From: Candidatus Acidulidesulfobacter diazotrophicus
GTDB taxonomy: Bacteria; SZUA-79; Acidulodesulfobacterales; Acidulodesulfobacteraceae
Assembly: GCA_004195025.1 (NCBI GenBank)
Contig: SGBB01000002.1
Coordinates: 62,001 to 126,000 of the forward strand
Reading direction: 5' to 3'
DNA: 64,000 bases
Within the stretch, counting starts at the first letter, position 1; each line of letters begins with the position of its first letter. Below are positions 10,289 to 64,000 of the stretch, one piece after another. The notes under the pieces are model-generated. The model was not told the DNA's origin and made no database searches. It saw only the letters and a program-made list of their open reading frames with translations. A program made the translations under genes and the position numbers.

Positions 10289-10443
10289 ATATTTTATGTA
10301 ATTTAATTATTTATTTTATTATATGCTTATATTAATATTAAAATTATAATAAAATATAATTTATATAAATCTATATTATGTAATTATCTATATTTAAGGT
10401 TTGTTTAGATTATTATTAGATTATAAAATTGGAGTATAATTTT

Positions 10444-13400
10444 ATGGATCCAAAATTTGTTCATCTTCATTTGCATTCGCAATATAGTTTATTAGACGGC
10501 GCAAATAAAATAGACGATATAATAAATAAATCTATAGAATTTAATATGCCTTCCGTTGCAATAACCGATCACGGTAATTTGTTCGGAGCGGTAGAGTTTT
10601 ATGAAAAGGCCGTAAAAAAAGGAATTAAACCTATTATAGGATGCGAAGTCTATGTTGCTCCCGGCTCAAGGTTTACTAAAAATCAAAATGAAAAGCATTA
10701 TTATCACCTTATCCTTCTTGCCATAAATGACGAAGGCTATAAAAATTTATGCAAGCTTGTATCAAAATCTTACTTAGAAGGTTTTTATTATAAACCGCGC
10801 GTTGACAAAGAGATTTTACAGGAATACAATAAGGGGCTTTTTGCATTAAGCGCCTGTATTAAAGGCGAAATTCCGCAAAAAATTTTATCGGGAAATATTG
10901 AAGAAACCGTTAAAAGCATCCAATTCTTTTCTAAGGTTTTTGATAACGACAGGTTTTATCTTGAAGTTCAGGAAAATGGAATTAAAGAGCAAAATATTAT
11001 AAATAAAGCAATATTAGAATTAGGGCAAAAATATTCTATACCCGTAGTTGCGACAAATGATTGCCATTATCTAATGCAAGAAGATTATGAAGCTCACGAT
11101 ATTTTATTGTGCATACAGACAGGTAAAAAAGTAGATGATAACGATAGAATGAGATTTTCAACCAAAGATCTTTATTTTAAATCCATATCTAAAATGTATG
11201 AAGACTTTTCTGATTATCCTGATTCGGTTCTAACAAATTCTATAGATTTATCCGATAAAATTAATTTTAATTTTAAATTCGGAGAATTTCATTTTCCTGC
11301 TTATAAACCAAAGCATATTCCTGCAGGCAATATATCTTTATCCGAAATTGCAGCATCGGGAATATCCGACTCAGATAATAAAGGGGATAATAAAGATAAT
11401 AAAAATGATTATTCCGATGCACTTCAGGACGGAGCGAAAGGCAGCGATGCAGGCGACAGTGAAAACATGGAAGAATTGTTTGAACATGATGCAAGAGAAG
11501 GATTTGAAGAAAGAATAAACAGTAACCCCGTTTATCAGCCAAAAATTGAGGAATATAGGCAAAGACTTGAAAGAGAAATTGATGTAATAAAAAAATCTAA
11601 ATTTGCAGGTTATTTTTTAATAGTTTCCGATTTTATCAAATATTCAAAAGAGCATGATATTCCAGTGGGACCGGGAAGAGGTTCCGCCGCCGGAAGTTTA
11701 GTTGCCTATTGTTTAAAAATTACCGACATAGATCCTATAAAATATGACTTGCTGTTTGAAAGATTTTTAAATCCTGAAAGAATAAGTATGCCTGATATAG
11801 ACAGCGATTTTTGCATTAACGGAAGAGACGAGGTAATCAAGTATGTCGCTTCAAAATATGGAGAAAGCAATGTTTCGCAAATAATTACTTTTGGAACGAT
11901 GCTTGCCAAAGGCGTTATTAGAGATACTGGGCGCGCATTAAATATGCCGTATAGCGAAGTAGACAAAATTGCAAAATTAGTTCCGAATACGTTGAAGATC
12001 ACTCTTGATGAAGCTATAAAAGAGGAACCTAAACTAAGAGAACTAATGCAAAACGATGAAAAAGTCAAAAAATTAATAGAAATAGCTAGAAAGCTTGAAG
12101 GTCTTACAAGACATGCTTCAACTCATGCAGCCGGCGTTGTTATTGCGAATAAGCCCCTTGATGAGTATCTGCCTCTATATAAAGGTTCTAAAGACGGTGA
12201 TGTTGTTACAACGCAATATACAATGGAAGGCGTTGAAAAAATAGGTCTTATAAAATTTGATTTTTTAGGTCTTAAAACTTTGACCGTAATGAAAGAAGCA
12301 ATAAATCTTATCAATGAAGCCAACAAAAATAAAGGCATAAAAAAAGAATTTGATATTTACAATATAGATTTAGCCGATCCAAAAACAGCCAAACTTCTTT
12401 CAAGCGGGGATACAACGGGAGTTTTTCAGCTTGAAAGTTCTGGAATGAAAGAACTGCTTTTAAAATTAGCTCCAAAATCGCTTGAAGATATTATTCCTCT
12501 TGTTGCGCTATATAGACCAGGTCCTCTCGGCAGCGGTATGGTTGACGATTTTATTAAAGCTAAAAACGGCGTTAAAAAAATTAAATATTTACATCCGTTA
12601 TTACAGGACATTCTTAAAGAAACATACGGCGTAATATTATATCAGGAACAGATAATGAGAATTGCTATTAAGTTAGCTAATTTTTCTATGGGAGACGCCG
12701 ATGTCCTACGAAAAGGCGTCGGTAAGAAAAATGCCGAACTTATTGAAAAAATGAGAAATAAATTTATAGAAGGATGCAAAAATAACAATATTGATAATAA
12801 TATTTCCGAAAAAATATTTTCGCTTATAACAAAATTCGGAGAATACGGTTTTAATAAATCTCATTCTGCCGCTTATGCTCTTGTCGCTTATATGACTGCA
12901 TATCTTAAGGCTAATTACTCGGATTATTTTATTGCCGCCTTACTTTCAAGCGAAATGTCAAATACGGATAAACTTGCGAAGATAATTAATGAAGCTAATC
13001 AATCAATAATAATTGCCCCTTCCGTAAATTATTCAGCAAAACATTTTGCTGTTTTACCGTTGAAAGATCATCCTGATATTAAAGAAAATTTAATTAAAAA
13101 TGCGTCAAAATATGGCGAAGATGTAGATTTAGACAAAAAAAACGTTATACAGATAGGACTCGGAGCTATAAAAAATGTCGGAGATGCCGCTATTGAATCT
13201 ATTTTATCTGAAAGAGAAAACGGTAAATATAAGAACTTACTTGATTTTTGTTCAAGAGTAGATACCAGAAAAGTTAATAAAAGAACCATAGAAAATTTAA
13301 TTAAAAGCGGAGCTATAGATATAGATATAGATGAAACAAGAAGAGGTATGCTTGAAAAATTAGAGAAAGCAATGCAAGAAGCCGCTTCTATAAAACAAAA

Positions 13401-29817: not shown

Positions 29818-29982
29818 TCCTTAATCCTGCATTAGAAACTATTTATAAGTTTTAATGCTAAATAACTCTGGATTCCTGCCTACGCAGGAATGACATCTAA
29901 AAGGTGAAATAATAAAACCCCGCAAAGTCATTCCCGCATAAGCGGGAATCCAGTATGTAAAATTATAATGCAGGATTAAGGA
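29818..29982. repeat. MITE-like palindromic element, copy B
   Basis: A 165-bp imperfect palindrome. The ends are perfect 17-bp inverted repeats, TCCTTAATCCTGCATTA at 29818-29834 and its complement at 29966-29982. Inside are two oppositely oriented cores: CTGGATTCCTGCCTACGCAGGAATGAC-type at 29868-29894 and its GTCATTCCCGC...CCAG mirror at 29927-29953, each itself a hairpin. No ORF is present. This nested arrangement is what a MITE or transposase-mobilised REP-like element looks like. Confidence 0.75.
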
Positions 29983-30007: not shown

Positions 30008-30052
30008 TTGAATATTTGCCTGTTGAATATTTGCCTGTTGAATATTTGCCTG
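30008..30052. repeat. Three tandem 15-bp repeats
   Basis: Three exact copies of TTGAATATTTGCCTG in direct tandem (30008-30022, 30023-30037, 30038-30052), about 130 nt upstream of the amidase gene. They are too short and contiguous to be CRISPR; an iteron-like protein binding site or replication slippage are the options. Confidence 0.8.
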
Positions 30053-30144
30053 TTATATTATTAATAGTATAATTATATAAAGGCTTTCTCTTTACTTGAT
30101 AACTATGTAAACATACTGTTATATTATTAATAGTATAATTATAA
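30050..30144. repeat. Duplicated 28-bp palindromic box upstream of the amidase gene
   Basis: CTGTTATATTATTAATAGTATAATTATA occurs near 30050-30077 and again near 30116-30143. Each copy contains the near-palindrome TTATATTATTAATAGTATAA. Two identical operator-like boxes about 66 nt apart lie directly before the amidase gene and suggest regulator binding, though simple AT-rich duplication is also possible. They also make up most of the gene-free stretch 29769-30181 with copy B and the 15-mers. Confidence 0.55.
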
Positions 30145-62787: not shown

Positions 62788-63708
62788 ATGAGTAATTCGA
62801 AACATCCGTTTATTACGGGATTTGTATTTCTGATTGTTTTTGTTGCCGTCTTCGGTTTAGGAATATATTTTATTTTATTCAATTTTCAATCCAAGCCGGG
62901 TTATAACGTAGTTCGCGGCACTTCGGCATATGCGATAGGCGTAATAAATTTAGACGGAGCTATAACATCTTCTTCTAATTTTATTGCATTATTAAATCAT
63001 TATAAACATGATTCTTATGTTAAAGCAATTGTTATAAAAGTAAATTCTCCGGGAGGGGCAGTCGCCCCCTCTCAGGCAATCTACGAACAGCTTACGAAGT
63101 TTAAAAAATATAAAAAAGTTGTTGTCTCTATGGGTTCGGTAGCTGCTTCTGGAGCATATTATATTTCATCTGCGGCAAATAAGATTGTGGCAGAACCAGG
63201 AACATTAACAGGTTCTATCGGCGTGATTATGGAAATGCCTAATGTTTATAAATTGTTTAAAAAAGTAGGCATATCTTATAATTATATAGTCAGCGGCCCC
63301 TATAAAGACATAGGCACTCCATTCAAAAAAATGACCCCTGCCCAAAGAAAGAAAATGCAAGGAGTTGTTATGAATGTATACGGTCAATTTGTTAAGGCTG
63401 TTGCTAAAGCAAGACATTTAAAAGTTTCTTATGTAAAAAAATATGCGAATGGAATGGTCTATTCAGGACAACAGGCTTTGAAACTGCATTTGATAGATAA
63501 ATTAGGAGATTTTCAGGATGCGGTTAAATTGGCGGCAAAATTATCCAATATTAAAGGCAAACCTACGATTATTTATCCTGTCAAAAAACAATCTCCTCTT
63601 TTTCAATCGTTTATCAAAAAAGCAATTGAAACATTTATTCGCAAAATTGGATCGGAAAGCAATTTGACGGGGTTAGATTCTATGACTTCATTAAGATTAA
63701 ATTTATAA
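62788..63708 (+). CDS. sppA: Signal peptide peptidase SppA (S49)
   Basis: Inner-membrane serine protease degrading leftover signal peptides. One N-terminal TM segment (about 9-31) anchors a 306-aa short-form protein. KVNSPGGAVAPSQAIYE is conserved. The nucleophile is Ser121 in SMGSVAASGAYY and the general base Lys173 in SGPYKDIGTP; their 52-residue spacing agrees with the Ser-Lys dyad of the short SppA family. It follows rpsA as in many deltaproteobacteria. The C-terminal tail is a little divergent. Confidence 0.93.
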   Translation: MSNSKHPFITGFVFLIVFVAVFGLGIYFILFNFQSKPGYNVVRGTSAYAIGVINLDGAITSSSNFIALLNHYKHDSYVKAIVIKVNSPGGAVAPSQAIYEQLTKFKKYKKVVVSMGSVAASGAYYISSAANKIVAEPGTLTGSIGVIMEMPNVYKLFKKVGISYNYIVSGPYKDIGTPFKKMTPAQRKKMQGVVMNVYGQFVKAVAKARHLKVSYVKKYANGMVYSGQQALKLHLIDKLGDFQDAVKLAAKLSNIKGKPTIIYPVKKQSPLFQSFIKKAIETFIRKIGSESNLTGLDSMTSLRLNL

Positions 63709-63809
63709 TAATTTTTTTAGGAATTTTTTCATATTTTTATAAAGCATATCGTAATATATGTAATATATAATATTATAAATTGTCGTCTGCTCTATTAGAA
63801 TTAAACTTG

Positions 63810-63927
63810 AATCCTGCGATAGGATCTGTTTTAGATACTTCAATGCTAAATAACGCTGGATTCCCGCTTTCGCGGGAATGACACCCGAAGGGTGAAAGTT
63901 TAAATCGCCGCTAAGTCATTCCTGCGT
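63810..63927. repeat. Modular intergenic repeat, copy D
   Basis: Begins AATCCTGCGATAGGATC and carries the best core in the window: a perfect 8-bp hairpin ATTCCCGC-TTTC-GCGGGAAT inside CTGGATTCCCGC...GCGGGAATGAC (63856-63882). The following 40 nt align base by base with the corresponding part of copy B (GGTGAAA...CGC.AAGTCATTC). The mirrored half expected from copy B is missing or lies beyond. Confidence 0.75.
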
Positions 63928-64000
63928 ATAATATAACTAAAGATGATTATGAGGCGATTAAAAAGTGAAAGTTTAAATCGCCGCTAAGTCATTCCTGCGT
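63892..64000. repeat. Direct repeat of at least 36 nt with a 37-nt spacer, cut by the window edge
   Basis: Two identical 36-nt stretches at 63892-63927 and 63965-64000, both starting GTGAAAGTTTAAATCGCC and ending TCATTCCTGCGT, separated by the unrelated 37-nt sequence 63928-63964. The second copy runs into the window end, so the true right boundary and any further copies are unknown. The geometry is like a CRISPR repeat-spacer-repeat, but the unit is also part of repeat copy D. Confidence 0.85.

Follow-up and report, generated by a model that had tools for sequence, protein, structure and literature searches.

Spacer integration by Cas1-Cas2 at noncanonical (off-target) sites was described by Nivala, Shipman and Church in 2018 (as cited in PMC11788318 and PMC9456107). 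According to the summary in PMC11788318, integrations into non-array genomic regions appeared upon Cas1-Cas2 overexpression (Nivala et al. 2018). In vitro, off-target sites resemble the leader-repeat junction and favor guanine (Kim et al. 2019, PMC6895254); the same paper reports that Cas1 proteins from diverse systems prefer guanine. Most of what is known about off-target spacer integration comes from overexpression and test-tube experiments.

Here we describe a locus at the right edge of the window, which is the whole 64,000-nt stretch of DNA analyzed (G000:C2:62001-126000; G000 is this genome, a draft of 47 contigs). The sequences are best explained if the cell's own Cas1-Cas2, most likely that of the type I-B system on contig C8, put a spacer-sized chromosomal fragment into a MITE and not into a CRISPR array. 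We give this reading a probability of about 0.86.

A repeat pair inside a MITE

Two identical 36-nt units (GTGAAAG...GCGT) lie at 63892-63927 and 63965-64000, with a period of 73 nt and a unique 37-nt gap (63928-63964), exactly where the first-pass annotation had placed them. Past the window edge the identity extends 1 base more (37 nt), so that the boundary between unit and gap can shift by 1 base on each side (37+36, 36+37, or 35+38). The features are as follows.

62788..63708, + strand: upstream gene, signal peptide peptidase SppA-like (peptidase family S49)
63806..64000, then 42 nt past the edge to ~64042, + strand: MITE-like element with insertion, 237 bp in total, 164 bp without the 73-nt insertion
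63892..63927, + strand: first copy of the duplicated MITE interior, 36 nt, or 37 if the following A is included
63928..63964, + strand: inserted 36- to 38-nt piece of what we take to be the host tsaC/sua5 gene, sense strand; 38/38 nt identical to G000:C6:115550-115587 (- strand)
63965..64000, + strand: second copy of the duplicated MITE interior; beyond the window it reads on as ACGCAGGAATCCAG...CTATCGCAGGATT
29819..29981, + strand: copy B, an uninterrupted MITE of the same family, the comparison copy within the window
30050..30143, + strand: possible weaker event (C2:92k), with a 28-nt duplication, a 38-nt gap, and guanine at neither end

The element at the window edge sits between the SppA-like gene and a HIT-domain gene. 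Like other MITEs, it has terminal inverted repeats (imperfect, 17 bp, CTTGAATCCTGCGATAG / CTATCGCAGGATTAAGG), dispersed copies, and an empty site, the sister genome (G006) having neither the MITE nor the insertion at this locus. A 5-bp TTAAA repeat, judged by eye, flanks it. The homology that the first-pass annotation saw between the repeat unit and copy B (29.8-29.98 kb) is real. Elsewhere in the genome the exact 36-nt unit occurs once more, on contig C18, inside an uninterrupted MITE. Because the window copy minus 73 nt is the C18 copy (164/164 nt identical), and because the G006 site is empty, the extra DNA is a 73-nt insertion inside the MITE, consisting of one 36- to 37-nt unit and a 36- to 37-nt foreign piece.

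That piece is self DNA. All 38 nt of the insert (ATAATATAACTAAAGATGATTATGAGGCGATTAAAAAG) are matched on contig C6, within an ORF (MKIYNFNNITKDDYEAIKKH...) that presumably encodes a TsaC/Sua5 (threonylcarbamoyl-AMP synthase) family protein. The early guess that the gap derives from a protein-coding protospacer was right: NITKDDYEAIK is in the correct frame of the host's own tsaC/sua5.

A genuine two-repeat CRISPR array, with a repeat that resembles the MITE by accident, would account for the CRISPR-like spacing and unit length, but we consider it extremely improbable. The units are pieces of a dispersed MITE, they differ between loci, and beyond the junction they are unlike the native repeats; each locus has a single "spacer," and the neighbors are the SppA-like and HIT-domain genes rather than cas genes. 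The array was rejected on the structure itself: there are only two units, the unit comes from within a 164-bp MITE that is uninterrupted on C18, and past the edge the second unit passes into ACGCAGGAATCCAG...CTATCGCAGGATTAAGG, which is the mirrored MITE half. There is no third copy of the unit within 3.5 kb past the window edge, and no cas genes were seen in the DNA there. The window also has no cas gene, as had been noted before, and the genome's four cas1 loci are all elsewhere. The absence of a third copy, the mirrored core, and the same element elsewhere dispose of the earlier proposal that a CRISPR repeat has relatives among intergenic repeats.

Recurrence in this genome and in a sister species

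We scanned 0.956 Mb of G000 (a 39% sample, low-complexity filtered, its stretches partly selected for MITE hits) for exact direct repeats of ≥28 nt with gaps of up to 380 nt. The scan gave nine exact pairs, with gaps of 35, 35, 35, 36, 36, 37, 38, 41, and 42 nt; no other gap up to 380 nt was found. One candidate (C6:99295, 30/42) was rejected when the sister genome revealed an ordinary tandem duplication. A pattern search for the duplicated core end added four loci of this kind, together with one tandem repeat that is unrelated. At C2:181269-181406 (L045/L046), next to one half of a MITE core, a 65-bp sequence is perfectly repeated in tandem; this is of a different kind and was set aside. Overall, there are ten pairs in G000, including one outside the sample (C1:235k) and one removed by the complexity filter (window position 30050), plus three in the sister species. 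They are listed as duplication/gap in nucleotides, with the source of the insert where one was found.

C2:125.9k (window edge): 36-37/36-37; tsaC/sua5, as above
C1:235k: 31/35; tryptophanyl-tRNA-synthetase-like (TrpRS-like) gene, 35/35 nt
C9:135: 31/36
C15:43.8k: 38/35
C18:36.2k: 37/35; IclR gene, 35/35 nt
C1:295k: 31/35
C6:83.9k: 31/36
C3:11k: 37/38; partial match
C4:27k: 40/41; intergenic stretch on C5, 41/41 nt
C2:92k (window position 30050): 28/38; G006 carries just a partial single copy
G006, two newer pairs with slightly diverged units: 38/35 and 30/35; sources found, 35/35 and 33/35 nt
G006, third, older pair: partial match

Across the 13 pairs, the gaps are 35 to 38 nt, with one of 41 nt, and the duplications are ~31 or 36 to 40 nt, apart from the weak window candidate (28 nt). 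At least 6 of the 13 gaps have near-perfect chromosomal copies elsewhere. For several events no source was found in G000 or its relatives, and four unexplained inserts had no exact source among viral contigs. The geometry is uniform across about ten loci, and so is the sequence at the cut sites.

Six of the ten G000 loci lie in palindromic MITE cores. Although ~1.1% of the sample lies near MITE core ends, five of the nine in-sample events fall there (P, ~2e-8). This enrichment is an upper estimate because MITE hits guided part of the choice of stretches. All five of these MITE-core events were recovered by the sample scan, and four also by the motif search. Separately, a ~270-bp repeat family has many copies, some of them clustered (L124 ~10430-12490 on G000:C3, also C39, C43, C45, and C5), and one copy is broken by a 37/38 event.

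Draft genomes (here 47 contigs) can suggest an assembly artefact, which is highly implausible here, since structures that are similar yet independent occur on several contigs and also in a second genome, and their flanks are unique and their boundaries exact. The cas1-negative control DNA (0.399 Mb) had no convincing case, and it is an unmatched control with few MITEs (8 core ends versus 100). Another genome, G002, has cas1, no MITE core end in its sample, and no event. G001 was left out as a cas1-negative control; it carries arrays though no cas1 was detected. Its two CRISPR arrays are on contig C1 (L189 13900-18000), and no cas1 was found in the 92% complete genome.

Cut sites, lengths, and the native CRISPR systems

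Each of the four cas1 loci of G000 adjoins a CRISPR array. Contig C8 has a complete type I-B operon (cas8b-cas7-cas5-cas3-cas6-cas1-cas2-cas4) and an array of 75 repeats of 37 nt, in which 58 of the 74 spacers are 35 or 36 nt long. On contig C14 (L037 3706-8062), a 1,097-amino-acid protein combines a group II intron-like reverse transcriptase with a CRISPR-associated primase-polymerase; its gene adjoins cas1 and an array of ~91 repeats with long spacers of 36 to 45 nt. Contig C1 (L040 11481-19510) has its own cas1, a six-repeat array, and a III-D-like type III effector operon, whose multidomain RAMP proteins are Csx10-like, TIGR03986, and Csx7-like.

The inserts match the I-B spacers in length, being 36 to 37 nt at the window edge and 35 to 38 nt at the other loci (one 41 nt), and the native I-B spacers are mostly 35 to 36 nt. 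The duplication is 36 to 37 nt at the window edge, and one class of duplication lengths equals the native repeat length (37 nt). Duplication length varies (~31 or 36 to 40 nt), whereas the native repeat is always 37 nt. The second cut in types I-B and I-E is set by a motif-based ruler (PMC6895254); therefore, duplications of varying length outside arrays are plausible, though unproven.

Guanine is at the cut in 19 of the 22 duplication ends of the eleven clear events (binomial P, ~2e-13 with a background of 0.15 in a 30% GC genome). We also compared the cut sites with the native I-B leader-repeat junction, TTAAG^GTTTGCGAGTAAAT. Over ten events the mean was 8.8 matches of 19, where 6.5 would be expected when the better of two orientations is taken (P, ~1e-5), and the likeness persisted when the null was limited to sites with G...C ends (P, 2.5e-4). 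The junction end alone resembles the native sequence; the full 37-nt unit has only a weak likeness to the native repeat. The cut sites were not matched by the native junctions of C14 or of C1a and C1b.

These data bear on two other origins. In one, a replication fork stalled at the palindromic MITE would have switched template, copied ~36 nt elsewhere, and returned upstream, leaving a duplication and filler DNA. The prevalence of palindromic cores (six of the ten loci), the chromosomal origin of inserts, and the single shared base at each joint of the window event are what such a switch would give. However, template switching predicts variable insert and duplication lengths, not gaps held to 35 to 38 nt (one 41), and it leaves the guanine ends and the I-B junction likeness without a reason; we think it improbable. 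The other origin keeps the mechanism and changes the enzyme to another of the three remaining Cas1 proteins, for example the RT-PrimPol-associated Cas1 of C14, possibly with RNA-derived spacers. The C14 array (36-nt repeats and 36- to 45-nt spacers, with a mode of 39 to 40) would suit the 41-nt event, and the lack of a PAM would suit type III. We regard this as unlikely, since the gaps cluster at 35 to 36 nt, the I-B mode, and the C14, C1a, and C1b junctions are unlike the cut sites.

The PAM evidence is mixed. Of the 16 native I-B protospacers, which were located in elements of relatives, 14 have 5'-TTA, one has TTT, and one has ATA; no consistent PAM was found across the traceable events. 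When the ambiguous A is taken as part of the insert, the window event has the flank TTTA, which fits 5'-TTA; the other traceable events have CCT (twice), CTA or CGA, and ATA or CTT, none of which fits TTA. Searches with the I-B array gave no match among phages and two matches among plasmids, both irrelevant. A stretch of a congener (L108, G004:C66:32000-44000) has about ten I-B protospacers in ~10 kb, almost all of which share one strand and have a TTA PAM, and is likely a provirus or plasmid of the genus.

Off-target integration by Cas1-Cas2 is favored because the extra DNA is an insertion, the insert is of self origin, the structure recurs, the insert lengths are those of I-B, the ends are mostly guanines, the junctions are I-B-like, and an I-B operon is present. 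A spacer-sized chromosomal fragment would have been taken up by Cas1-Cas2, most likely the I-B pair of C8, and its 3' ends would have attacked both strands of the MITE ~37 nt apart, as in normal spacer acquisition. Gap filling would then have duplicated the target to give repeat-spacer-repeat, with MITE cores as favored sites of such off-target integration. We infer that Cas1-Cas2 was the agent, that the I-B integrase was the one responsible, and that the products are inert scars rather than functional mini-arrays. The first-pass annotation had offered, as its other choice, a repeat element partly duplicated by chance; the repeat element stands, and chance does not, given about ten loci with uniform gaps, guanine ends, and I-B-like junctions.

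We can imagine, as a rather doubtful extension, that MITE cores mimic the leader-repeat border closely enough to be permanent landing sites for Cas1-Cas2, and that the lineage thereby continually seeds self-derived repeat-spacer-repeat units, some of which could be expressed or become new arrays.

Comparison with known systems

About ten mapped events in a wild genome, many with readable sources, provide natural evidence of the frequency with which Cas1-Cas2 misses, of the features it recognizes, and of the way the duplication is measured. They also advise caution with two-repeat "CRISPRs" called by array finders, which can be integration scars. With them, it becomes directly testable whether new CRISPR loci are seeded by dispersed palindromic repeats.

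The element shares with MITEs its short length, dispersal, terminal inverted repeats, lack of coding capacity, and empty site in the sister species; here, however, the MITE is the target of insertion and not its agent. Transposases duplicate ~2 to 14 bp of their targets, and the 31- to 40-nt duplications here are far longer.

Ectopic spacer acquisition within arrays (PMC7999890, PMC8047081) has in common with these events that integration occurs away from the leader-proximal repeat. There, however, integration is at other repeats of a true array, whereas the targets here are not CRISPR repeats. The closest precedents, Nivala et al. and Kim et al., worked with purified proteins or with E. coli overexpressing Cas1-Cas2. 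In contrast, the present genome is wild, and its events, about ten in number, are natural and fixed; many have self-derived inserts, and they are concentrated in MITE cores. The reaction was already known in vitro and under overexpression; what is new is the dense natural record, with MITEs as its hot spots.
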